From Ramlibacter sp. WS9 (GTDB lineage: Bacteria; Pseudomonadota; Gammaproteobacteria; Burkholderiales; Burkholderiaceae_C): a stretch of DNA of 64,000 nucleotides. The translations under genes were made by a program, and so were the position numbers. Positions 47,689 through 59,649 of the stretch are shown piece by piece. The DNA lies in NCBI RefSeq assembly GCF_003797765.1, contig NZ_RKMB01000017.1, positions 1 through 64,000 on the forward strand, read 5' to 3'. The first letter of the stretch is position 1. Every line of letters starts with the position of its first letter. The notes beneath the pieces were generated by a model, which saw only the letters and a program-made list of their open reading frames with translations, ran no database searches and was not told where the DNA came from.

Positions 47689-48723
47689 TCAGCCGAAGTC
47701 CAGCAGCACCTTCATCGCCTGCGAGCGGTCGGCCGCCAGGGCGAAAGCCCGCCCCGCGTCACGGTAAGACACGGTGGCCGATATCAAGGGCTTGACGTCC
47801 ACCAGGCCCTTGTTCAGCAGCTCCACCGCCATCGCGAACTCTTCGTGGAAGCGGAAGGTGCCGCGCAGGTCGAACTCCTTGGCGACGATGGCGTTGATCG
47901 GCAATGTCATCTCGCCGCCCAGACCCACCTGCACGATGATGCCGCGAGGACGCAGCGCGTCGAATGCCGCTCGCAGCGCCCGCTCGTTGCCGCTGGCTTC
48001 GAACAGCACGTCGAACTGGCCCTTGTCCACCGCGAAGGGCGTCATCAACTCAGGTTGACGCGCCACGTTGATGGCCTGGTCGGCGCCGATCTTCATCGCA
48101 CTGCGCAGCGGGTAGTCGCCGATGTCGGTGACGACGATGTTGGTGGCGCCGGCGCGCCGCGCCGCGATCACCACCAGCGCGCCGATGGGCCCGCAGCCGG
48201 TGACCAGCACGTTCTTGCCCAGCAGCGGGCCGGCCCGGCGAACCGCGTGCAGCGCCACAGCCAGCGGCTCGGCCATTGCGCCTTCTTCGTCGCTCACCGA
48301 ATCCGCCAGCTTGTGCGCTTGCCCCTTCTCCACCACGATCTCGCGGCGGAAGGCGCCTTGCACGTGCGGCGTGCGCATGGCGCTGCCGAAGTAGCGCATG
48401 TCGAGGCAATGGTTTTGCAAGCCCTGCTGGCAGTAGCGGCACATGCCGCAGGGCAGGCTGGGGCTGATGGCGATGCGCTCGCCGGACGCGAAGCCCGAGA
48501 CGGCACTGCCCACTTCTTCGATCATGCCCGCCACTTCATGGCCCAGCACCATGGGCTCTTTCACGCGGATGGTGCCGAAGCCGCCATCCTGGAAGTAGTG
48601 CAGATCGGAGCCGCAGATGCCGCCGAAGCGAACCTTCACGCGCAGCTGGTGCGCCAGGACTTCGGGGGTGGGCACGTCCTCGACGCGAAGGTCGCGGGCG
48701 GCGTGGATGACGAGAGCGTCCAT
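47689..48723 (-). CDS. L-idonate 5-dehydrogenase-like zinc alcohol dehydrogenase
   Basis: A 344-residue medium-chain dehydrogenase. Catalytic-zinc residues are in GGICGSDLHYF and MVLGHEVAGMIEEVG; structural zinc Cys are in LPCGMCRYCQQGLQNHC. VLVTGCGPIGALVVIAARRAG is the NAD site. The closest pattern is idonate/sorbitol dehydrogenase (IdnD). The start lies 13 bp after the SDR gene stop. Together IdnD and the SDR would turn idonate into gluconate. Confidence 0.88.
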   Translation of the reverse strand: MDALVIHAARDLRVEDVPTPEVLAHQLRVKVRFGGICGSDLHYFQDGGFGTIRVKEPMVLGHEVAGMIEEVGSAVSGFASGERIAISPSLPCGMCRYCQQGLQNHCLDMRYFGSAMRTPHVQGAFRREIVVEKGQAHKLADSVSDEEGAMAEPLAVALHAVRRAGPLLGKNVLVTGCGPIGALVVIAARRAGATNIVVTDIGDYPLRSAMKIGADQAINVARQPELMTPFAVDKGQFDVLFEASGNERALRAAFDALRPRGIIVQVGLGGEMTLPINAIVAKEFDLRGTFRFHEEFAMAVELLNKGLVDVKPLISATVSYRDAGRAFALAADRSQAMKVLLDFG

Positions 48724-48736
48724 GCTTTGTGTCTTC

Positions 48737-49510
48737 TTAAAGGGTGGCGGTCACGCCGCCATCCACGTACAGGATGTGGCCGTTGACGAAGTTCGATGCC
48801 TCGCTGGCCAGGAAGACGGCCGCGCCGACCAGGTCGTCCAGGTCGCCCCAGCGGCGCGACGGCGTGCGATTGACGAGCCAGCCGCTGAATTCGGGATTGT
48901 TCACCAGCGCCTCGTTGAGTTCGGTCTTGAAGTAGCCTGGGCCCAGGCCGTTGACCTGGATGCCGTGCGGACCCCAGTCGATCGCCATGCCCTTGGTCAG
49001 CATCTTCACGGCGCCTTTGCTGGCCGCATAGGGCGCGATGTTGGGGCGGCCGAGTTCACTTTGCACCGAGCAGATATTGATGATCTTGCCGCGGCCACGT
49101 GGGATCATCTGACGCGCCACGGCTTGGCCGACCAGGAACACGCTGTCGACGTTGGTCTTCATCAGTTCGTGCCAGTGCGCTTCCTCGAACTGTTCCAGCG
49201 GCGCGCGGCGCTGCATGCCAGCGTTGTTGACGAGGATGTCGATAGCACCGATCTCAGCCTCGATCTTCGCGATGGCGGCCGTGACGGCAGCACCGTCGGT
49301 GACGTCGAATGGCATGGCAACCACGTTCGCGCCTTCAGCCCGCAGCTTCTCCGCGGCGCGTTCCAGCTTGGCCGCATCGCGGCCATTCAGCACGATGCGC
49401 GCACCCGCGCCGGCAAGCCCGACGGCCAATGCATGGCCGATGCCGGAACTCGATCCGGTGATGAGGGCCGTGCGGCCGGTGAGGTCGAATTTCTGAAGTA
49501 CGGGATTCAC
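48737..49510 (-). CDS. SDR-family oxidoreductase, gluconate 5-dehydrogenase-like
   Basis: A 257-residue SDR. TGSSSGIG is the cofactor loop, NNAGMQRRAPLEQF and ICSVQSELGRPNIAPYAASKGAVK (Ser and YxxxK) are the active site, and this last run is characteristic of gluconate 5-dehydrogenase (IdnO). The GTG at 49510 has AAGGAG 4 bp upstream. It lies 38 bp beyond a terminator that ends the gluconokinase operon, so it probably has its own promoter. Confidence 0.88.
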   Translation of the reverse strand: MNPVLQKFDLTGRTALITGSSSGIGHALAVGLAGAGARIVLNGRDAAKLERAAEKLRAEGANVVAMPFDVTDGAAVTAAIAKIEAEIGAIDILVNNAGMQRRAPLEQFEEAHWHELMKTNVDSVFLVGQAVARQMIPRGRGKIINICSVQSELGRPNIAPYAASKGAVKMLTKGMAIDWGPHGIQVNGLGPGYFKTELNEALVNNPEFSGWLVNRTPSRRWGDLDDLVGAAVFLASEASNFVNGHILYVDGGVTATL

Positions 49511-49541
49511 ACAACTCCTTTTTTTTGACGACGGGCCGCCC

Positions 49542-50105
49542 CTAGGCAAAAAAGCCCCCTCGGGGGGCAGCGAAGCGTGGGGGCGAATTCATTTCCGTGA
49601 TGCTACGGCTAAGCCAGTCCATGATCGTACCCGCCTGCATCGGCAAAGCCCGGTGGGCCGGCAGTTGCAGGACGTCGGCCTCACCAAGAGGCGCCTCGAG
49701 CGATGCGAACTGGCTCACCACCAGGCCCGGCGGAAAAAAATGATCCTTGCGGGCCGCCACGCGGCAGTGCGCCTCGGCCAGCGAGATTTCCAGGTAGACG
49801 ATACGCAGATCAGGCTCGGCCGCGCGCAGCCGGTCGCGATAGCTCCGCTTGAGCGCGGAGCAGGCCAATACGGCGCTGCCCGGGGCCTGCGCGAGCAGCG
49901 CGCCCAGCTTGTCCAGCCACGGCTCGCGATCGCTGTCCAGCAGGGCAATGCCGGCCCGCATCTTTTCCTGGCTGAGCCGCGGATGATGCTCGTCGCCCTC
50001 GATCAAGGTTGCGCCCAGTTGCGCGGCCAGCATGCCGGCAACAGTCGACTTGCCGCATCCGGCCACGCCCATGACCAGCACTTTGTGACGCGGGGCGGCG
50101 TTCAT
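49542..50105 (-). CDS. gntK: Gluconokinase
   Basis: A 187-residue kinase of the GntK family. VMGVAGCGKSTVAGMLA is Walker A, EGDEHHPRLSQEKMRAGIALLDSDREPWLDKL is the gluconate-binding region and ACSALKRSYRDRLR is typical. It makes 6-phosphogluconate. The start overlaps the hydroxyacid dehydrogenase stop by 4 bp. The last residues (PRGGFFA) are encoded by the arm and U-tract of the intrinsic terminator at 49548-49568, so the gene may have gained a tail. Confidence 0.92.
   Translation of the reverse strand: MNAAPRHKVLVMGVAGCGKSTVAGMLAAQLGATLIEGDEHHPRLSQEKMRAGIALLDSDREPWLDKLGALLAQAPGSAVLACSALKRSYRDRLRAAEPDLRIVYLEISLAEAHCRVAARKDHFFPPGLVVSQFASLEAPLGEADVLQLPAHRALPMQAGTIMDWLSRSITEMNSPPRFAAPRGGFFA
49548..49568 (-). 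terminator. Intrinsic terminator inside the 3' end of gntK
   Basis: The minus strand reads GCCCCCCGAGGGGGCTTTTTT: a GC-only stem and six T residues, a textbook Rho-independent terminator. It lies just before the gntK stop codon at 49542, so the last codons of the gene overlap it. It separates gntK from the SDR gene. Confidence 0.8.
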
Positions 50106-51097
50106 GAGAGAAGCACCTGTGGATTGACCGGCGTCAGCGGGCGGCCGGCATTGGGCCCGTGGCCGAGCGCCGCGACCAGGTTGTCCGCGGTCAGTTGCGC
50201 CATGGCGCGCCGGGTGCGCACCGATGCGCTGCCGATGTGCGGCGTGAGGACGATGTTGGGCACTTCCAGCAGATCCGGGTGAACACGGGGCTCGCCCTCG
50301 AACACATCCAGCCCGGCGGCGGCGATGGTGCCCGCGCGCAGCGCCGCGGCCAGTGCGGCGTCGTCGACGATGCCGCCACGGGCGATGTTCGTCAGCGTGG
50401 CGGTGGGCTTCATCATTGCCAGCTCGTTCGCGCCGATGGCGTGGTGGGACTGCGGCGAATAGGGCAGCACCAGCACCAGATGGTCGGCTTCGCGCAGCAG
50501 CGTGTCCTTGTCCACGTACTCCGCTTGCGAACCGTCCTCCAGCTCGGGCGCCAGGCGGCTGCGGTTGTGATAGATCACGCGCATGCCGAAGCCCACCGCG
50601 CCACGCCGCGCGATGGCCTGGCCGATGCGGCCCATGCCGAGGATGCCGAGGGTGGCGCCGTAGACGTCGCCGCCCGCGAACTGATCGTAGATGCCCGTCT
50701 TGGTCCACTCGCCGCGGCGCACGAATCGTTCGGCCTCCGCTATCCGCCGGGCAGTCGCCATCATGAGCGCGAAGCCGAAGTCGGCGGTGGTCTCGGTCAG
50801 CACGTCGGGCGTGTTGGTGACGAGCACGCCGCGCGCGGTGCACGCCGCCACGTCGACGTTGTTGTAGCCGACGCCGACGTTGCAGACGGCCTTCAGTTGC
50901 GGGCAGGCATCGAGCAGCGCGGCGTCGATCCGCTCGCTGCCGGTGCTCATTACGCCCTGCTTGCCTTGCAGACGGTCCGTCAGCTCCGCGGGGCTCAGTA
51001 CCGTGTCACCTGGGTTGTCCGTGACGTCGAAGTGCTGGCGCAGGCGATCGGCGATATCGGGGAAGGTCGCGCGGGTGACGAGGATCGCAGGGCGCAT
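50102..51097 (-). CDS. D-isomer-specific 2-hydroxyacid dehydrogenase (2-ketogluconate/glyoxylate reductase type)
   Basis: A 331-residue NAD(P)H-dependent dehydrogenase. TLGILGMGRIGQAIARRG is the Rossmann loop; catalytic Arg in NIARGGIVDD, Glu in GLDVFEGEP and His in LTPHIGSAS are all in place. VGVGYNNVDVAAC is also conserved. It probably reduces 2-keto(5-)gluconate or glyoxylate. Downstream gntK overlaps it, which favours a ketogluconate-to-gluconate-to-6-phosphogluconate route. Confidence 0.9.
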   Translation of the reverse strand: MRPAILVTRATFPDIADRLRQHFDVTDNPGDTVLSPAELTDRLQGKQGVMSTGSERIDAALLDACPQLKAVCNVGVGYNNVDVAACTARGVLVTNTPDVLTETTADFGFALMMATARRIAEAERFVRRGEWTKTGIYDQFAGGDVYGATLGILGMGRIGQAIARRGAVGFGMRVIYHNRSRLAPELEDGSQAEYVDKDTLLREADHLVLVLPYSPQSHHAIGANELAMMKPTATLTNIARGGIVDDAALAAALRAGTIAAAGLDVFEGEPRVHPDLLEVPNIVLTPHIGSASVRTRRAMAQLTADNLVAALGHGPNAGRPLTPVNPQVLLS

Positions 51098-51812: not shown

Positions 51813-53021
51813 TCAGTGCAGCGCCGCAACCGCGCGTGCGATGCGGGTGCAACCTTCTTCCAGGATGTCGATCGATGTCGCGATCGACAGGCGGAAGTAC
51901 GGCGACAGGCCATAAGCAGTGCCGGCGACGACGGCCACGCCCACGCTTTCCAGCAGGTACATCACCACGTCGCCGTCTTCGGCCAGCACCTTGCCTTCGG
52001 GCGTCGTCTTGCCGATGAGGCCCGCGCAGTTGATGTAGAGGTAGAAGGCGCCGTCGGGGCAGAGGCAGCTCAAACCGGGGATGGCGTTGATGCGGGCCAA
52101 CGTGGCATCGCGTCGCTGCCGGTAAACCGCCAGGCTCTCGGCGACGAAGCCCTGGTCGCCGTTCAAGGCGGCGGCCGCTGCGGCCTGGCTGACCGAGCAG
52201 CAGTTGCCTGCGGACTGGGACAGCAGGGTGTCCATGGCCTGCACCAGGTCGCGCGGGCCGGCGGCCCAGCCGATGCGCCAGCCGGTCATCGCGTAGGTCT
52301 TGGACACACCGTTGATCGCCAGCGTCCGGTCGCGCAGCTCGGGCGCGGCGTTCAGCAGATGGGGCGTGCGCTCGCCGTCGAAGCGGATGTGTTCGTAGAT
52401 GTCGTCGGTCATCACCAGCACATCGGGATGCGCGGCCAGCACTTCGGCGAGGGCGCGGTACTCGGCGACCGTATAGCTCGCACCGGTGGGGTTGCTGGGC
52501 GAATTGAGCAGCAGCCAGCGCGTGCGCGGCGTGATCGCCGCCGCCAGCTGCGCGGGGGTGATCTTGAAGCCGTTGGCTTCGGGGCAGGCCACCGTGACGG
52601 GCACGCCGTCGCTGGCGAGCACCATGTCCGGGTAAGACACCCAATACGGCGCGGGAATGATCACCTCGTCGCCCGGCTGCAGCGTGATCGCTAGCGCCGT
52701 GTAGATCGCGCTCTTGGCGCCGCTGGTGGCGATGATCTCGTTGAGTGCGTAGGCCAGGCCATTCTCGCGCTCGAGCTTGGCGGCGATCGCCTGGCGCAAC
52801 TCGACCGTACCGGCCATCAGCGTGTAGCGGGTGGCGCCTTTCTCCATCGCTTCGGCAGCCGCGCGGCGGATATGGGCCGGCGTATCGAAGTCCGGCTCGC
52901 CGACGACGAGGTTGACGATGGACTTGCCCTGGCGCCGCAGCTCGTTGGCGCGGTCGGCGGCCGAGGTGCTTGGCGATGGCTTGATGCGCCTGACGCGCTC
53001 GGCAATGCGGGACGGATTCAC
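51813..53021 (-). CDS. Class I/II PLP aminotransferase (aspartate aminotransferase-like)
   Basis: A 402-residue aminotransferase. VNLVVGEPDFDTPAHIRRAA, RYTLMAGTVELRQAI, NSPSNPTGASYTVAEY and the PLP Lys in GVSKTYAMTGWRIGW are present. It has the Arg region (FRLSIATSID) for the substrate carboxylate near the C-terminus. The GTG at 53021 gives the family start (NPSRIAERVRRIKPS); longer frames extend into the promoter. It is the first gene of the operon driven by the Nac-type promoter at 53049-53120, which suggests nitrogen-linked control. Confidence 0.9.
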   Translation of the reverse strand: MNPSRIAERVRRIKPSPSTSAADRANELRRQGKSIVNLVVGEPDFDTPAHIRRAAAEAMEKGATRYTLMAGTVELRQAIAAKLERENGLAYALNEIIATSGAKSAIYTALAITLQPGDEVIIPAPYWVSYPDMVLASDGVPVTVACPEANGFKITPAQLAAAITPRTRWLLLNSPSNPTGASYTVAEYRALAEVLAAHPDVLVMTDDIYEHIRFDGERTPHLLNAAPELRDRTLAINGVSKTYAMTGWRIGWAAGPRDLVQAMDTLLSQSAGNCCSVSQAAAAAALNGDQGFVAESLAVYRQRRDATLARINAIPGLSCLCPDGAFYLYINCAGLIGKTTPEGKVLAEDGDVVMYLLESVGVAVVAGTAYGLSPYFRLSIATSIDILEEGCTRIARAVAALH

Positions 53022-53048
53022 GGAGGTCCTTTTGGCGGCCTTGGAGAC

Positions 53049-53120
53049 AGGCGTAACAGTAAGACGCCTTCGCATCGCGCGCCAAGACGAGTTCGGTCTG
53101 CCCAAATAGGCAACGCTTAT
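53049..53120 (-). promoter_or_regulatory. Nac-type promoter for the aminotransferase operon
   Basis: On the minus strand: ATAAGCGTTGCCTAT (53120-53106; ATA-N9-TAT), 20 bp, TTGGCG (53085-53080), 18 bp, TACTGT (53061-53056). Both spacings are the same as in the promoters at 54103 and 58815. The ATA-N9-TAT element fits the Nac consensus, with its centre near -64 from the expected start point. Confidence 0.75.
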
Positions 53121-53173
53121 GGATAGCGCGGGGTTCGTGGCATCATCAGGAATCACTCCGCCCGCCGGACCGC

Positions 53174-54106
53174 ATGAACCTCAGGCGCCTGAAATATTTC
53201 GTGAAAATCGTGGACGTCGGCAGCCTCACGCAGGCCGCCGACCTCTTGCACATTGCCCAGCCGGCCCTGAGTCAGCAACTGGCGACGCTCGAAGGCGAAG
53301 TGCGCCAGCAGCTGCTGGTGCGAACCAAGCGCGGCGTCACGCCCACGGAGGCCGGCAAGGTGCTCTACCGCCATGCCCAGCTGATCCTTCGCCAATGCGA
53401 GCAGGCACGCGTCGACATGGAGGCGGCCGGGCGGGGGTTGTCAGGCGCGGTGTCGGTCGGCCTGGCGCCGGGCACCGCCGCGGCGGCACTGGCCTTGCCT
53501 TTGATACGCACGGTGCGGGCTCGCCATCCCGGCATCCTGCTCTACCTGAACGAAACCTACGGCACCACGCTGTCGGAATTGATCATGAACGGTCGCATGG
53601 ATCTGGCCGTGCTCTACGGCGGCAAGATTTCGGTCCATGGCCTGTCGTTCCTGCCGTTGCTTAAAGAGCCGCTCTTCGTGGTCGGCCCCAACAGCATGCC
53701 GTCCCCGCCCGACCAGGTGCCGCTGCGCATGCTGGGCGAGATGGACCTGTATCTGGCGCGTCCTTACAACGTGGTGCGCCGGATGGTGGACGAAGCTTTC
53801 GCCGCCGCCGGCATGGTGCCGCGGGTCGTCGGCGAGATCGAATCCGCCAGCACGCTCAAGGCAGTGATCGCCGATGGGCTCGGTGCCACCATCCTTCCGG
53901 CGTCGATGGCAGCCGAAGTGGTCGCGTCCTGCGACGCTTGGCAATGCCGCATCATCGAGCCGGTGATAGAAGCGCCATTGGCGCTGTGCCAGTCGGACCA
54001 CCTGCCGCTGTCAGAACCGGCGCAGGCCGTGAAGGAAATCCTGCTCGAGCTCGTGACGGGTCTGCCGCACAGCCTGCTCGCTGGCGAGCATCACGCCGCG
54101 TCATAA
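53174..54106 (+). CDS. Nac-type LysR-family nitrogen regulator
   Basis: A 310-residue LysR protein whose N-terminus, MNLRRLKYFVKIVDVGSLTQ, is very close to enterobacterial Nac; LHIAQPALSQQLATLEGE, LVRTKRGVTPTEAGKVLY and the effector-domain start VSVGLAPGTAAAALALPLIRTVRA also follow Nac. In enteric bacteria Nac adjusts nitrogen-source genes. It is flanked by two promoters carrying ATA-N9-TAT sites, and a third such promoter lies 4.7 kb on. The site at 54103 overlaps its own stop codon. I infer that it controls these three operons; autoregulation from the 53106 site is possible. Confidence 0.88.
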   Translation: MNLRRLKYFVKIVDVGSLTQAADLLHIAQPALSQQLATLEGEVRQQLLVRTKRGVTPTEAGKVLYRHAQLILRQCEQARVDMEAAGRGLSGAVSVGLAPGTAAAALALPLIRTVRARHPGILLYLNETYGTTLSELIMNGRMDLAVLYGGKISVHGLSFLPLLKEPLFVVGPNSMPSPPDQVPLRMLGEMDLYLARPYNVVRRMVDEAFAAAGMVPRVVGEIESASTLKAVIADGLGATILPASMAAEVVASCDAWQCRIIEPVIEAPLALCQSDHLPLSEPAQAVKEILLELVTGLPHSLLAGEHHAAS

Positions 54107-54174
54107 GCCTCCCTTATCGGGGTAGAGACATTCCGTCTTGGCGCACCGGCGCCCGCGCCGCTACTGTTGCGGGC
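54103..54174 (+). promoter_or_regulatory. Nac-type promoter for the carboxylase/Pxp operon
   Basis: ATAAGCCTCCCTTAT (54103-54117; ATA-N9-TAT with ATAAG/CTTAT arms), 20 bp, TTGGCG (54138-54143), 18 bp, TACTGT (54162-54167). The flank TCCGTCTTGGCGCA is identical to that at 58815. The start point would be near 54174, only a few bases before the ATG at 54177, so the mRNA may be leaderless or nearly so. Confidence 0.75.
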
Positions 54175-54176
54175 AT

Positions 54177-54617
54177 ATGGAGCTGCAGCAGATCAAGGCA
54201 TTCATCGACGCGATGGCCTCATCGGACGTCGCCGAGATGGAGTTCAGCCAGGACGGCTGGACGCTGCGCCTGGCGCGGGGGACGGGCGGCACGCAAGTGG
54301 CTGCGCCACGCGTCGCTGCGGCCCGTGCGAGGCCGGCGACCACCATCGCTGCGGCGCCACGTGAAGACGCCGTTCGCCCTGGAGAAAACTTGGTTCGCGC
54401 GCCGCTCTATGGCGTCGTCCACCTGCAGCCTACGCCCGGCGAGCCACCTTTTGTGGCGCCGGGACTGGCCGTGAAGGCGGGCCAGACGCTGTGCGTGATC
54501 GAGGCCATGAAGGTCTTCAACGAAGTCCGGGCGGAGCATGACGCGACTGTCGACGCGGTGCTCGTCGCCTCCGGCCAGGAAGTGGAAGCCGGCCAGCCGC
54601 TGGTGCGCTTTGCCTGA
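54177..54617 (+). CDS. Biotin carboxyl carrier protein (AccB-like)
   Basis: A 146-residue BCCP. The N-terminal helix ([23 protein letters not shown]) and an Ala/Arg-rich linker precede the biotinyl domain; the attachment site is Lys112 in [29 protein letters not shown] and [13 protein letters not shown] are family strands. It is not next to accA or accD; the partner genes are the biotin carboxylase and PxpB/PxpC, so it probably serves a special carboxylase rather than fatty-acid synthesis. Confidence 0.9.
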
Positions 54618-54625
54618 GGCCGCTC

Positions 54626-55987
54626 ATGCCCGCCATGTTCGACACCGTCCTGATCGCCAATCGCGGTGAAATCGCGTTGCGCATCCAGCGCGCCTGCAAA
54701 GGGCTGGGTCTGCGCACGGTCGCCGTCCATTCCGAAGCGGATCGAGACGCGGTCTATGTGCGCCAGGCCGACCAGGCCTTGTGCATCGGGCCTGCAGCGC
54801 CGGGGCGCAGCTACCTGAACCAGGCGGCGATCCTGTTCGCCGCGCAGGTGAGTGGTGCCCAGGCGATCCACCCCGGCTACGGGTTCCTGTCGGAGAACGC
54901 GGGCTTCGCCGAGCGGGTGGAGCAGGCCGGGCTGACCTTCGTAGGGCCGAGCGCCGCCTGCATCCGGACCATGGGCGACAAGGTTGCAGCCAAACACGCC
55001 ATGCGGGCGGCCGGCGTGCCTTGTGTGCCCGGGCCCGACACCGCGCTGCCCGATGACCCCGACGCCGTACGCGCCGTGGCGCGGGACATCGGCTATCCGG
55101 TGATCGTCAAGGCGGCGGGTGGCGGCGGCGGCCGAGGTATGCGAGTTGTGCAGGGCGAGGCCGAACTGCTGGACGCGTTGTCGCTGACGCGCGAAGAAGC
55201 CCGCCGCGCCTTCGGCAACCCCGAGGTCTACATCGAGAAATTTCTGCTGCACCCGCGCCACGTCGAGATCCAGGTGCTGGCCGATAGCCACGGCAATGCG
55301 CTGTGGCTGGGCAGCCGCGACTGCTCGCTGCAGCGCCGCCATCAGAAGGTGCTGGAAGAGGCGCCGGCGCCGGGCATCGACGCGGCTGTGATCGCCGCCG
55401 TCGGCGAACGCTGCGCGCATGCCTGCCGGCAGATCGGCTACTGCGGCGTCGGAACCTTCGAGTTCCTCTACGAGAACGGCGCGTTCTATTTCATCGAGAT
55501 GAACACGCGGCTGCAGGTGGAGCACCCGGTCACCGAATTGACGGCGAACATCGACATCGTGCAGCAGCAGCTGCGCGTGGCGCGCGGTGAGCGGCTGGCC
55601 CTCACGCAGGCCGACATCGGCTGCCGCGGCCACGCCCTCGAATGCCGGATCAATGCCGAGGACCCGGACACCTTCGCACCGTCGCCGGGGCTCATCGGCG
55701 AGTGGGTGCTGCCCGGCGGCTACGGCGTTCGCGTGGACAGCCATGCCGGCACCGGCTACCGCGTGCCGCCGTACTACGACTCGATGATCGCCAAGCTGAT
55801 CGTGCACGGAGCGACGCGCGACGACGCGCTGCTGCGCATGCGCGCGGCGCTGGACGAGATGCGCGTCGGCGGCATCGCCACCAACCTCGCGCTGCACCGG
55901 CAGATCGTGCGGGACGTGGGCTTCTCCGCGGGCGGCGTCGACATCCATCACCTCGAGCGCTGGCTGCAGCAACGGAGCGCCGCATGA
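54626..55987 (+). CDS. Biotin carboxylase (AccC-like)
   Basis: A 453-residue ATP-grasp enzyme. [16 protein letters not shown] is the N-terminus, [31 protein letters not shown] (ATP glycine loop), [23 protein letters not shown] and [16 protein letters not shown] are all present. It loads CO2 on the biotin of the BCCP encoded 8 bp upstream. It is coupled to PxpB by ATGA. No canonical carboxyltransferase follows. Confidence 0.93.
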
Positions 55988-56643
55988 AGCGGGACATTGC
56001 GACCATCAGCCTGCTGGGCACCAGCGCCTTGTTGTTCGAGGCCCCCGGCGAGATGGAGCTGTCCGTGCAGCAGCGCATCTGGATGCTGGCCCGCGAGGCG
56101 CGGGCCTGGCCCGAAGTTCGCGAGGCCGTTCCCGGCATGAACAACCTGATGCTGAGTTTTGGGCGACCACCGCACCGGCTCGATGAACTCCAGATGCGGC
56201 TGCATGCCGCGTGGGACGCGGCCCGGCCGCTGCCGCTGGATGGCCGCATCGTCGAATTGCCCGTGGTGTACGGCGGCGATGCCGGGCCGCACATGGCCGA
56301 TGTGGTCGCCCACACGGGGCTCAGCGTGGACGAGATCGTCGAGCGTCATTGCACGCCCCTCTATCCGGTCTACGCGCTTGGCAGCCATCCCGGCTATTGC
56401 TACCTGGGCGGCATGGACCCGCGCATCGCCACACCCCGGCGCAAGGTGCCCGTGGTCAGCATCCCGGGCGGCGCGGTATCGATCGGTGGCGTACAGACCG
56501 GCGTTTCAGCGTCTGCGGGGCCCAGTGGCTGGAACACCATCGGCAGCACGGCGATGCACTTCTTCGATCCGGCGCAGGACCCGCCTGCGCTGATGCAGCC
56601 CGGCGACAGCATCCGCTTTCGCGCCGAAAAGGTGATCCGATGA
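55984..56643 (+). CDS. pxpB: PxpB/KipI-family protein (AHS1 domain)
   Basis: A 219-residue protein with the AHS1/KipI domain. [30 protein letters not shown] and [21 protein letters not shown] are the signatures, followed by [21 protein letters not shown]. In PxpABC it forms, with PxpC, the ATP-dependent part of 5-oxoprolinase; the same two domains form the carboxyltransferase of urea carboxylase. ATGA overlaps on both sides put it under tight coupling with the biotin carboxylase and PxpC. Confidence 0.92.
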
Positions 56644-57632
56644 TCGAAGTCCTTTCCGCCGGCGCGCTGGCCACTGTGCAGGACCTGGGCCGCACGGGCG
56701 CTTTGCGCTGGGGCGTGGGCAGTTCGGGCGCGATGGACCCGCTGGCACTTGCGGCCGGCAACCTGCTGCTGGGCAATGAGGAAGGCGCAGCGGGGGTCGA
56801 GGTGCCGGTCTTTCCGTTCCAGATTCGTTTTACCGCCGACTGCGCGTTCGCGGTCACGGGCGCCGACTGTATGGCCCGCCTGGACGATGCGCCGATGCTG
56901 CCGTGGTGGAGCCACGAAGCCAAGGCCGGCCACGTGTTGCAGCTGGGTGTGCCGCGCCAGGATGGGCCGTGGCGCGCCAGCCGCGCCTACCTATGCCTGG
57001 CCGGGGGCATCGACGTGCCGAAAGTGCTGGGCTCTCGCAGCACGCAGCTGCGCGGCGCTTTCGGCGGCCTGGACGGGCGGCCCCTGCGCCGTGGAGACAC
57101 CCTGCGCGCCATGGCACCGGGCGCCGGCCAACGCATCACCGGATTCGGCCTGCGGCCGCCGGCGCTGGACCTGCCATTGCAGGCCGACGGCGTGACCGCG
57201 GTACGCGTGTTGCCCGCGGCCGAGTACGGCAACTACACGGAAGCTTCGCATGCGGCTTTCTGGTCGGAAGGCTGGAAGATCACGGCGCAAAGCGACCGGT
57301 ATGGCTATCGGCTCGCCGGCACACCGCTGGAGCCCATTGCGCACATCGAGACGCGTTCGCACGGCATCGTGCCCGGCGTCATCCAGGTGCCGGCCAGTGG
57401 CCAGCCCATCATCCAGATGTGCGACGCGCAGCCGTCGGGCGGCTATCCCAAGATCGGCACGGTGATCGAGGCCGACCTGTGGCGGCTGGGTCAGGCGCCG
57501 ATCGGCAGCAGCATCCGCTTCGTCGAGACCACGTGGGACGACGCGATCACCGCGCTCGACCAGACCCAGGAATGGCTGCACGAGGCACGCCGCCTGGTGG
57601 ACTTGTACCGCGACCAGCGGGCGAGGAGCTGA
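56640..57632 (+). CDS. pxpC: PxpC/KipA-family protein (AHS2 domain)
   Basis: A 330-residue AHS2/KipA protein. VLSAGALATVQDLGRTGALRWGV and GAMDPLALAAGNLLLGN are the family start, AYLCLAGGIDVPKVLGSRST and DRYGYRLAGTPLEP lie in the middle, and SHGIVPGVIQVPASGQPIIQMCDAQPSGGYPKIG is the conserved active region. It pairs with PxpB. It starts on the PxpB stop (ATGA). Confidence 0.93.
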   Translation: MIEVLSAGALATVQDLGRTGALRWGVGSSGAMDPLALAAGNLLLGNEEGAAGVEVPVFPFQIRFTADCAFAVTGADCMARLDDAPMLPWWSHEAKAGHVLQLGVPRQDGPWRASRAYLCLAGGIDVPKVLGSRSTQLRGAFGGLDGRPLRRGDTLRAMAPGAGQRITGFGLRPPALDLPLQADGVTAVRVLPAAEYGNYTEASHAAFWSEGWKITAQSDRYGYRLAGTPLEPIAHIETRSHGIVPGVIQVPASGQPIIQMCDAQPSGGYPKIGTVIEADLWRLGQAPIGSSIRFVETTWDDAITALDQTQEWLHEARRLVDLYRDQRARS

Positions 57633-57634
57633 CC

Positions 57635-58042
57635 ATGCGCATAGACGACGTGCGCCAACTGTCGGCCTGGCTGGAGGCCACCGACATCGACATGCTGGAG
57701 CTGCAAGGGCCGGGAGAGCGCCTATGCTTGCGGCGCAACGGCAACCGGATCGAAGTTGCCTCCGATGGTGCTGAGGAGTTGGCCGGGCCGCTCACCGTCG
57801 TGAAGGCCGAGTCGGTCGGTGTTTTCCTGGACGGACATCCGCAGCGCGCCGAACCCCTGGCGAGTCCGGGCACACGTGTGCGCGCCGGTCAGGCGGTGGG
57901 TTTGCTGCAGATCGGCGCGCTGCTGCTGCCCGTCGCTGCTCCGCACGACGGCACGGCCCTGGCGACGCTGGTCGCGCCGGGCACGGCCGTGGGCTACGGG
58001 ACGCCGCTGATTGAATTGCGGCCGTATGAGGAGAACACTTGA
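57635..58042 (+). CDS. BCCP-like protein without the biotin lysine
   Basis: A 135-residue protein with BCCP layout: an N-terminal helix (MRIDDVRQLSAWLEATDIDMLEL), a short linker and a lipoyl/biotinyl-like barrel (RVRAGQAVGLLQIGALLLPVAAPHDGT). Where the other BCCP has EAMK, this has GALL, so it cannot be biotinylated. The surrounding strands align with those of the protein at 54177. It may be a structural or regulatory subunit. It lies between pxpC and pxpA, 2 bp after the former. Confidence 0.75.
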   Translation: MRIDDVRQLSAWLEATDIDMLELQGPGERLCLRRNGNRIEVASDGAEELAGPLTVVKAESVGVFLDGHPQRAEPLASPGTRVRAGQAVGLLQIGALLLPVAAPHDGTALATLVAPGTAVGYGTPLIELRPYEENT

Positions 58043-58044
58043 TC

Positions 58045-58818
58045 ATGGACATCGACCTCAATGCCGATCTGGGCGAAGGCTACGGCGCCTGGCGCATGGG
58101 CGAGGATGAGGCACTGCTCGACATCCTTTCGTCCGCCAACGTGGCCTGCGGCTTTCATGCCGGCGACCCGGTCATCATGGAGCGGACGGCGCGACTCGCG
58201 CTGGCGCGCGGCGTCGATGTTGGCGCGCACGTGGGCTTTCCGGACCGCCAGGGGTTCGGGCGCCGTGTCATGCAGATCGAGACTGCGGAACTCGCCGCCA
58301 TGGTCACCTACCAGTTGGGCGCGCTTGCGGGAATCGCACGGGCCGTAGGGCATCGCATGACACACATGAGCTTCCACGGCGCGCTGGGCAACCTCGCCGC
58401 CGCGGACGCCGCCCTCGCGGGTCCGCTGGTGCGCGCGGTCGCCCAGTTCGACCCCAGCCTCATCATCAGTTCCTCGAGCAGCCGGGCCATCGAGACGGCG
58501 GCGGCCGAATGCGGTTTGCGCGTCGCCACCGCTTTCCTGGCCGACCGGGCCTATGACGACGAAGGCCTGCTGGTGCCGCGCAAACTGCCCGGCGCGGTGA
58601 TCCACGACGAGGCCGCGGTGCTGGAGCGGGTGCGCCACCTTCTTGCGCATGGGAGCATCGTCACCCAAAGCGGCCGGACTCTGGCGATGCACCCGCGCTC
58701 GATCCTGGTTCACGGCGACACGCCGGGGGCAGTCGAGCTGGCGCGGTCCGTACGGCGCGAAGTCGAAGCCGGCGGCGGCAGGATCGTCCCCATTTCCCAC
58801 CAGCTGGCCGTGACATAA
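58045..58818 (+). CDS. pxpA: PxpA/LamB/YcsF-family hydrolase (divergent)
   Basis: A 257-residue LamB/YcsF protein. MDIDLNADLGEGYGAWRMGED and SANVACGFHAGDPVIM are the family motifs. Others are altered: HVGFPDRQGFGRR instead of the usual HPGYPD, and MSFHGALGNLA instead of KPHGALYN. The changes are in the presumed active-site loops, so the substrate may differ from 5-oxoproline. ATG 58045 follows AGGAG; a TTG at 58039 is possible. It ends at the next Nac-type promoter. Confidence 0.85.
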   Translation: MDIDLNADLGEGYGAWRMGEDEALLDILSSANVACGFHAGDPVIMERTARLALARGVDVGAHVGFPDRQGFGRRVMQIETAELAAMVTYQLGALAGIARAVGHRMTHMSFHGALGNLAAADAALAGPLVRAVAQFDPSLIISSSSSRAIETAAAECGLRVATAFLADRAYDDEGLLVPRKLPGAVIHDEAAVLERVRHLLAHGSIVTQSGRTLAMHPRSILVHGDTPGAVELARSVRREVEAGGGRIVPISHQLAVT

Positions 58819-58886
58819 GGGCGGCTTATCGCACCACACCCAATCCGTCTTGGCGCAAGAGCCCCACGATCGATAAATTGACACAA
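58815..58886 (+). promoter_or_regulatory. Nac-type promoter for the SDR/amino-acid ABC operon
   Basis: ATAAGGGCGGCTTAT (58815-58829; ATA-N9-TAT), 20 bp, TTGGCG (58850-58855), 18 bp, TAAATT (58874-58879). The geometry is the same as at 54103 and 53120, and TCCGTCTTGGCGCA is shared with the 54103 promoter. The operator overlaps the pxpA stop codon. Confidence 0.75.
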
Positions 58887-58902: not shown

Positions 58903-59649
58903 ATGCCCTTCACTGACTACAAGACCGCCCTCGTGACAGGTGCCTCGTCCGGCATCGGCGCGGCCGTCGTCGAGCGGCTGTGCAAGGAAGGACTTCAGGT
59001 GCACGCCCTGGCGCGCGGCGCCCAGGCACTGGAGGCGCTGGCCCAGCGCACCGGCTGCGTTCCTCATGCCATGGACGTGAGCGACCTCGCCGGCATCACC
59101 CGGCTCACCGGCGAAGTCGAGTTCGACGTGCTGGTCAACAACGCGGGCGTCGACCGGCCCAAGCCCTTCCTGCAGGCCGATGCGCAAGACATCGACCTCT
59201 TGATCGATGTGAACCTGCGGGCCGTCCTGCACCTGTGCCGCCTGGTGGTGCCGGGGATGGTGCAACGCGACCGCGGCCATGTCGTCAACATCAGCTCCAT
59301 CGCCGGCGCCTACAACTTCGGCGGCAACTCGACCTACCACGCCACCAAGGCCGCAGTGAGCATGTTGTCGCGGCAGCTGCGCATCGACGCTTTCGGCAAG
59401 CGCGTCCGTGTGACCGAGATCTGCCCCGGCCGGGTAGCGACCGATATCTTTGCCCATGTGCATGGCGACTCCGCGGAAACCTACGAGCGCTTCGTCAAGG
59501 GCTTCGAGCTGCCCCAGGCCGAAGACATCGCCAACGCCATCGCCTTCGCGATCGCCGCGCCGGTGGCGGTGAACATCGGCCACATCGAGATCACGCCGAC
59601 CATGCAAGTCCCCGGCGGCCTGCAAACCACGCGTCCGGAGAGCGCATGA
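58903..59649 (+). CDS. SDR-family oxidoreductase
   Basis: A 248-residue SDR of the YdfG/serine-dehydrogenase-like group. TGASSGIG, NNAGVDRPKPFLQ, ISSIAGAYNFGGNSTYHATKAAV (Ser, YxxxK) and EICPGRVATDIF are present. It may oxidise a hydroxy-amino acid such as serine or a beta-hydroxy acid. AAAGGAAAG precedes the ATG. Its stop overlaps the permease start (ATGA), so it is the first gene of the ABC operon. Confidence 0.9.
   Translation: MPFTDYKTALVTGASSGIGAAVVERLCKEGLQVHALARGAQALEALAQRTGCVPHAMDVSDLAGITRLTGEVEFDVLVNNAGVDRPKPFLQADAQDIDLLIDVNLRAVLHLCRLVVPGMVQRDRGHVVNISSIAGAYNFGGNSTYHATKAAVSMLSRQLRIDAFGKRVRVTEICPGRVATDIFAHVHGDSAETYERFVKGFELPQAEDIANAIAFAIAAPVAVNIGHIEITPTMQVPGGLQTTRPESA

Follow-up and report, generated by a model that had tools for sequence, protein, structure and literature searches.

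A probable local regulon of a Nac-family LysR regulator, with three operator-promoters of one geometry, in Ramlibacter sp. WS9

A stretch of 64,000 nucleotides from Ramlibacter sp. WS9 (contig NZ_RKMB01000017.1; hereafter the window) carries a gene for a LysR-type regulator of the NAC family and, around and near it, three promoter-like elements of closely similar build. Does this regulator switch the operons behind the three elements as one local regulon, and would that regulon be a nitrogen-source module? To the first question we answer, with a probability of roughly 0.87, that the three elements serve as operator-promoters of LysR type in a single local regulon run by the adjacent regulator. 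The elements, with their putative parts, and the regulator gene, which sits between P1 and P2 and is divergent to P1, are as follows.

53056..53120, minus strand: P1 operator-promoter, upstream of the aminotransferase operon, in the divergent region shared with the LysR gene; ATA-N9-TAT dyad 53120-53106, TCTTGG 53087-53082, TTGGCG 53085-53080, −10 TACTGT 53061-53056
54103..54167, plus strand: P2 operator-promoter, upstream of genes for biotin carboxyl carrier protein (BCCP), biotin carboxylase, PxpB, PxpC, a second BCCP-like protein and PxpA; dyad 54103-54117, TCTTGG 54136-54141, TTGGCG 54138-54143, −10 TACTGT 54162-54167
58815..58879, plus strand: P3 operator-promoter, upstream of genes for a short-chain dehydrogenase (SDR) and an ABC transporter; dyad 58815-58829, TCTTGG 58848-58853, TTGGCG 58850-58855, −10 TAAATT 58874-58879
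53174..54106, plus strand: LysR-type regulator, NAC family, 310 residues; NF008410 487.5 bits (cut-off 309), PF00126 and PF03466

An earlier note on this DNA had described all three sites as ATA-N9-TAT, exactly 20 bp and TTGGCG, and this geometry was recovered at 53120-53080 on the minus strand and at 54103-54143 and 58815-58855 on the plus strand. The further step of 18 bp from TTGGCG to a −10-like hexamer is exact at P1, P2 and P3. The sequence said to be common to two of the sites, TCCGTCTTGGCGCA, is present in P2 and P3 (14 bases); its core, TTGGCGCA, is frequent by itself in the window, with 8 matches against 5.3 expected. If transcription starts 7 bp past the −10 box, the predicted starts lie near 53049 (P1), 54174 (P2) and 58886 (P3), and the proposed dyad centre near −64 fits the −10 boxes. 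The dyads of P2 and P3 each overlap the stop codon of the preceding gene. Coding constraint does not explain the element, because the P2 site stands some distance past the LysR match in many relatives.

How unusual is such an element? ATA-N9-TAT-N20-TTGGCG gave no match in 100 dinucleotide-preserving shuffles of the window. When spacers of 19 to 21 were permitted in the whole genome (6.98 Mb), the three window sites were found at 20 and one other site at 21 on another contig, with none in the reversed control. A longer pattern with up to 3 mismatches matched the three window sites only (0, 0 and 1 mismatches; 2 matches in the reversed control), and the dyad ATAAG-N5-CYTAT by itself has 4 occurrences in the genome, P1 to P3 accounting for 3 of them (reversed control 1). 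The rarity belongs to the exact form of the pattern. As for many unlinked targets, the full element was found genome-wide solely at the three local sites, the looser ATA-N9-TAT alone being left uncounted genome-wide.

The element is conserved well beyond the genus. A similarity search with the LysR protein confirmed 440 related loci, of which the best 80 (66-95% identity) were used. Their titles name Variovorax in 30 of 80, and also Caenimonas soli, Aquabacterium, Ralstonia, Cupriavidus, Polaromonas, Pseudomonas and Paraburkholderia, as well as metagenome-assembled genomes labelled Acetobacteraceae, Rhodospirillales and other Alphaproteobacteria. In nearly all 80 loci the LysR gene lies near aminotransferase and BCCP genes; the contig of L074 ends before the aminotransferase, L050 has inserted transporter genes, and four loci have RraA and HADH genes between LysR and BCCP. 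The exact pattern gave 78 matches in 58 of the 80 loci, all with spacer 20, while any other spacer from 10 to 30 gave at most 1 and the reversed pattern 0. With the looser box TTG.C. there were 148 sites at spacer 20 (73 loci) and at most 7 at each spacer other than 20 and 21. Over the relatives the conserved element is longer than first stated, reading ATAAG-N5-C(T/C)TAT-N5-CA-N-A-N3-A-N5-TCTTGG; TCTT is kept in 97-99% of the relatives' sites and the final G of TTGGCG in just 54%.

A weight matrix built from 119 distinct sites and run over the window and the 80 loci found 249 sites, and none in the reversed control. Sorted by the gene behind them, these were aminotransferase 82, BCCP 77, SDR 73, RraA 11, ADH 2 (weak), SDR1 1 and unassigned 3. 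Among loci that contain the gene and at least 150 bases upstream of it, a site was present at the aminotransferase in 79 of 79, at BCCP in 76 of 80 and at the SDR in 72 of 72, and all three occurred together in 68 of the 80 loci. A BCCP site is lacking in just those four loci where RraA follows LysR, and there RraA bears the site. Module genes standing apart have element copies of their own, at RraA (11 sites), ADH (the 2 weak ones) and SDR1 (1, in L035). The hexamer form TA-N3-T lies exactly 18 bp past the element at 74 of 77 BCCP sites, 69 of 73 SDR sites, 63 of 82 aminotransferase sites (16 more at 19 bp) and 11 of 11 RraA sites. Both the gene position behind the site and the −10 box lay outside the training of the matrix.

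Element and regulator gene also occur together in wider samples. The extended element, with 1 mismatch allowed, was present in 6 of 299 genomes drawn evenly from the family, and 5 of these 6 have exactly three sites in one block; the reversed element gave 1 match in all. A NAC-family protein (E ≤ 1e-75) was present in the same 6 genomes, 5 of them over the cut-off, and in 0 of the 293 others. The sixth genome (G566) is fragmented, and its site-bearing contig (L133) also carries a LysR gene end with 80% identity to the window's gene, followed by BCCP. In 12 genomes known to have the regulator, all 43 matches with up to 2 mismatches lay on the contig of the cluster (reversed control 1). A search of 60 genomes of the genus with the short exact pattern gave 7 matching genomes; besides that of strain WS9, the real element is found in G020 (three sites) and G028 (one). 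The exact long pattern, applied to 399 genomes of the order, was found in the strain's own genome only, a result of little weight since the pattern misses P2 even there. The check proposed in the earlier note, that the spacing be kept in orthologous loci and track the LysR gene, thus came out positive: spacer 20 dominates, the sites stand at orthologous genes, and element and regulator co-occur.

The regulator itself is close to Nac. The DNA-binding domain had been called very Nac-like, and 55 of the first 65 residues are identical to E. coli Nac (85%); over 296 residues the identity to E. coli K-12 Nac is 51%, against 24% for Cbl. It is the sole gene of its genome over the NAC cut-off of 309, the next match reaching 219.7 bits. 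Among solved structures the nearest are remote LysR proteins (best E 2e-21), and nothing decisive came of them.

Several side observations concern copies of the element and of the regulator. In Polaromonas (G064, L200:16582) a second Nac-family gene (L119, 422.7 bits) precedes hydroxyacid dehydrogenase, gluconokinase-like and SDR genes, and the hydroxyacid-dehydrogenase operon of L200 has its own element copy in front. Cupriavidus (G063, L199:1176) has one more element, a weaker one, some 340 bases before a gene that, from its translation only, reads like an outer-membrane porin. In Pseudomonas sp. T1-3-2 (L093:9915-10629) there is a tandem partial second copy of the regulator with an identical second copy of the element. 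In L072 / L146 (G609:C7:24671-25558) a stop interrupts the regulator frame and the three elements persist.

The genes behind the three sites in the window are listed below, with model scores in bits.

51813..53024, minus strand: class I/II aminotransferase, first gene past P1, with a chosen start codon; NF004769 722.7 (cut-off 617), PF00155
51108..51782, minus strand: RraA-like aldolase-family protein, second gene past P1; PF03737, NF004850 303.6 (cut-off 231)
47689..51097, minus strand: remainder of the probable P1 operon, from open reading frames, comprising the next four genes
50102-51097, minus strand: 2-hydroxyacid dehydrogenase; closest model glyoxylate reductase 322.3, below cut-off 455
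49542-50105, minus strand: gluconokinase-like, named from the translation
48737-49528, minus strand: SDR; general SDR model PRK07523 403.5 (cut-off 413), then gluconate 5-dehydrogenase 349.8 (408), both below cut-off
47689-48723, minus strand: zinc-type dehydrogenase; closest model L-idonate 5-dehydrogenase 352.3, below cut-off 469
54177..54617, plus strand: BCCP with biotinylation motif; TIGR00531 98.4, below cut-off 115.2
54626..55987, plus strand: biotin carboxylase; TIGR00514 660.2 (cut-off 626.5)
55984..56643, plus strand: PxpB; TIGR00370 189 (cut-off 145.55)
56640..57632, plus strand: PxpC / urea-amidolyase-related protein; TIGR00724 305.4 (cut-off 230.2)
57635..58042, plus strand: second BCCP-like protein; weak BCCP match of 26.6, no Pfam match
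58045..58818, plus strand: PxpA (LamB/YcsF family); NF003814 329.3 (cut-off 226)
58903..59649, plus strand: short-chain dehydrogenase, first gene past P3; PF00106
59745..62749, plus strand: ABC transporter with two permeases, ATPase and family-3 (amino-acid-type) solute-binding protein; PF00528 twice, PF00005, PF00497

The PxpC-type protein scores 294.5 bits with the PxpC equivalog NF045499, below its cut-off of 500, and the substrate may differ from 5-oxoproline. The gluconokinase-like gene, used as an in-frame query, was matched in 11 of the 80 loci besides the window, and in L200. Two further points concern the carrier proteins. Reading on from the −10, the first ATG in frame for BCCP falls some 3 bases past the predicted start, at site position 75, an arrangement that would give a nearly leaderless mRNA (54162-54177); the first in-frame BCCP start falls at site positions 72-76 in 15 of 77 sites, the window included, and the rest differ. 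The biotinylated-lysine motif, present in 81 of 81 BCCP rows, is absent from the second BCCP-like protein in 70 of 76 aligned rows, again with the window included.

What the DNA shows directly is that the elements exist with a fixed geometry, are conserved and occur together with the regulator gene. In the mechanism that we propose for them, the Nac-family regulator, the presumed binder, would recognise the ATAAG-N5-CYTAT dyad centred at about −64 and would contact the conserved CA-N-A-N3-A-N5-TCTTGG block running into the −35 region. It would then activate a sigma-70-type promoter whose −10 is located 18 bp past TTGGCG, the position of the dyad pointing to activation and not to repression. 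The aminotransferase, biotin-carboxylase/Pxp and SDR-transporter operons would thereby very probably be switched jointly, as one unit, and the module may serve to take up and degrade an amino-acid or lactam compound.

A number of results weigh against a single regulon of this kind. The downstream half of the element held no second dyad in a column-shuffle test (1809 of 2000 shuffles were at least as symmetric), so that what points to an activation site there is conservation together with position; of the T-N11-A dyads, only that at element position 8 stands out in symmetry. If 2 mismatches to the ATA-N9-TAT-N20-TTGGCG-type pattern are allowed, 3 matches in the window become unremarkable (0.94 expected; 9 of 100 shuffles reach 3). 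The short exact pattern gives 5 strays in the 60 genomes of the genus, one of them in G020, and the looser box TTG.C. also gives 21 sites at spacer 21. Counts over the related loci are not counts of independent events, since the best 80 of 440 were chosen by LysR similarity and 30 are Variovorax, and the weight matrix was trained on sites from the same loci that it scanned. In G566 the NAC match, at 302.7 bits, is under the cut-off and lies on another contig than the site. Separately, two second dyads picked by eye, AGnC-N5-GTCT and CANAG-N9-CTTGG, were unsupported by the column-shuffle test and were dropped.

Could the elements instead be bound by another regulator of the cell? The link from element to regulator is drawn from sequence, and the genome offers 98 matches to the NAC model at E ≤ 0.001. 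We nevertheless hold this to be very improbable, given that element and Nac-family gene share the same 6 of 299 genomes, that the sites are confined to the regulator's contig in the 12 genomes known to have it, and that the one match over the cut-off in the strain's own genome has a DNA-binding domain close to that of E. coli Nac. It is also unlikely that TTGGCG and the −10 box are simply strong promoter hexamers, with the ATA-N9-TAT dyad as the only regulatory part. TTGGCG does share four of six bases with the −35 consensus TTGACA, and the −10 stands at the usual distance. The best-kept core, TCTTGG, however, begins two bases upstream of the −35 hexamer, CA-N-A-N3-A lies between this core and the dyad, and the last base of TTGGCG is kept in little more than half of the sites. 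Chance, or a recent duplication of a single promoter region, we put close to nil: the 14 bases common to P2 and P3 would suit a duplication, but the three sites differ in the DNA that separates their boxes, none of the 100 shuffles produced the pattern, and each class of site is kept separately in 72 to 79 loci.

More weight attaches to the question whether NtrC governs the module as a nitrogen-limitation regulon in which the regulator acts like enterobacterial Nac. The earlier note had spoken of a single nitrogen-source module. A common operator-promoter of three operons tied to the LysR gene is supported; the nitrogen part stays at the level of inference. For NtrC control speak the NAC family membership, the aminotransferase and amino-acid-type transporter in the regulon, and the sigma-54-like sites that precede the regulator gene in relatives from Variovorax, Pseudomonas and the enteric group. 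Such −24/−12-like sites score 9-12 of 12 at E. coli nac and 10 other enteric nac genes and 10-11 at three other enteric genes, while four Nac-family genes of another class score 4-7. In the 80 rows of cluster-linked regulators, which include the window, 27 have a score of 10 or 11, namely 12 from Variovorax, 14 from Pseudomonas and 1 from Herbaspirillum, and each of these scores was reached by 0 to 10% of 50 shuffles. Against it, no sigma-54-like promoter was found upstream of the regulator gene in the window, where the best score of 7 of 12 is reached by 82% of 50 shuffles, or in Caenimonas soli (also 7 of 12, with 82% of shuffles as good). The sites are, moreover, confined to one cluster, and the dehydrogenases behind P1 are closest to idonate/gluconate models, below cut-off, which is a misfit with a pure nitrogen-source role. 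We consider the NtrC regulon doubtful for the window, where NtrC control is unsupported, and NtrC control possible in relatives. The expectation that cluster-linked regulators lack sigma-54 promoters had been tried and gave a mixed outcome, true for the window and false for many relatives. The place of the sigma-54-like site is nearly constant in Variovorax (among L024-L066), at about −28, and ranges from about −50 to −300 in Pseudomonas (L067-L085, L093). As to what a local regulon of the Nac-family regulator would handle, it is speculation that a lactam is opened to a substituted glutamate, then transaminated and cleaved, which would suit PxpA/PxpB, biotin carboxylase, the aminotransferase and the RraA-type aldolase.

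How, then, is the local regulator related to Nac itself? In a draw of 398 genomes of the phylum, a NAC-family gene was found in 17: that of strain WS9, 12 of one family of the same class (one with two such genes) and 4 of one family of another class. The family of 12 appears to be enterobacterial, since 10 of its genes fall together with E. coli Nac in the tree and 8 of those 10 have an adjoining second LysR-type match like Cbl; the family of 4 would be alphaproteobacterial. L188 and L194 of the enteric family, and L190, L191 and L193 (three of the four of the other class), likewise have this aminotransferase, the SDR and Pxp genes beside them, and the element there takes a weaker form. In maximum-likelihood trees canonical Nac forms one clade (100/100) inside the cluster-linked regulators. 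Branching outward from it are L188/L194, Pseudomonas, the window's group, and then Paraburkholderia with four (or three) of the other class; L189, an enteric gene without the cluster, is the nearest relative of L188/L194 and was counted with them. Forcing the cluster-linked regulators into one clade that excludes Nac was rejected by the approximately unbiased (AU) test (p 0.0215), which is good evidence and not final, as the grouping was picked after the first tree and the outgroup branches are long. As an observation on the clusters, the enterobacterial-type L195 and L196 have Pxp, aminotransferase, SDR and transporter genes; neither biotin carboxylase nor BCCP was matched in the 19 kb fetched.

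From these trees we lean, without great assurance, towards an origin of the enterobacterial global Nac by duplication of the regulator of a local Pxp/aminotransferase/transporter module; Nac would have kept the DNA-binding domain and operator and gone genome-wide after leaving the cluster. The local regulator may already have used an ATA-N9-TAT operator at −64 of sigma-70 promoters. If true, this would be a route from a local pathway switch to a global nitrogen regulator. The finding also bears on annotation. Outside the one enteric family, the even draws contain 9 NAC-model genes over the cut-off, at least 8 of which stand in a Pxp/aminotransferase/transporter cluster; in such cases the automatic name 'nitrogen assimilation regulator NAC' would point to the wrong regulon. 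A precise operator-promoter is also now proposed for a catabolic module present across several groups of Proteobacteria.

It remains to set the system beside known ones. The operator of enterobacterial Nac is ATA-N9-TAT, in Klebsiella at about −64 of a sigma-70 promoter. With Nac of E. coli and Klebsiella the window regulator shares 51% identity, the same NCBI model and this operator, at about −64 by prediction here. It differs in standing beside its putative targets, in having its elements confined to one cluster and in the downstream TCTTGG block that is part of the element; unlike E. coli nac, the window gene has neither cbl as a neighbour nor a sigma-54-like promoter. OccR, BenM and CbnR are LysR-type regulators with recognition and activation sites. 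Operators of their type have in common with P1 to P3 a T-N11-A dyad at about −64, a second conserved block beside the −35 and a divergent target, whereas the second block here is not a recognisable dyad and the same promoter spacing recurs at three or more operons.

Among PxpABC 5-oxoprolinase clusters, a dedicated regulator is on record in Corynebacterium glutamicum, where PxpR is of the GntR type and represses (PMC13274462). In both systems PxpA, PxpB and a PxpC-type protein are accompanied by a transporter and a regulator of their own, and the window differs in its Nac-family LysR regulator and in its biotin carboxylase, two BCCP-type proteins, aminotransferase and RraA-like protein. Searches of the open-licence literature brought up no paper in which a Nac-family regulator serves a Pxp/biotin-carboxylase cluster, which is weak evidence of absence, and the passages of PMC4834489 and PMC5217608 make no mention of the Nac operator. 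Compared with these systems, the one in the window belongs to a known kind, that of LysR regulons, with a regulator from the NAC protein family; what is new is its local form, and a connection with the way Nac arose is plausible.

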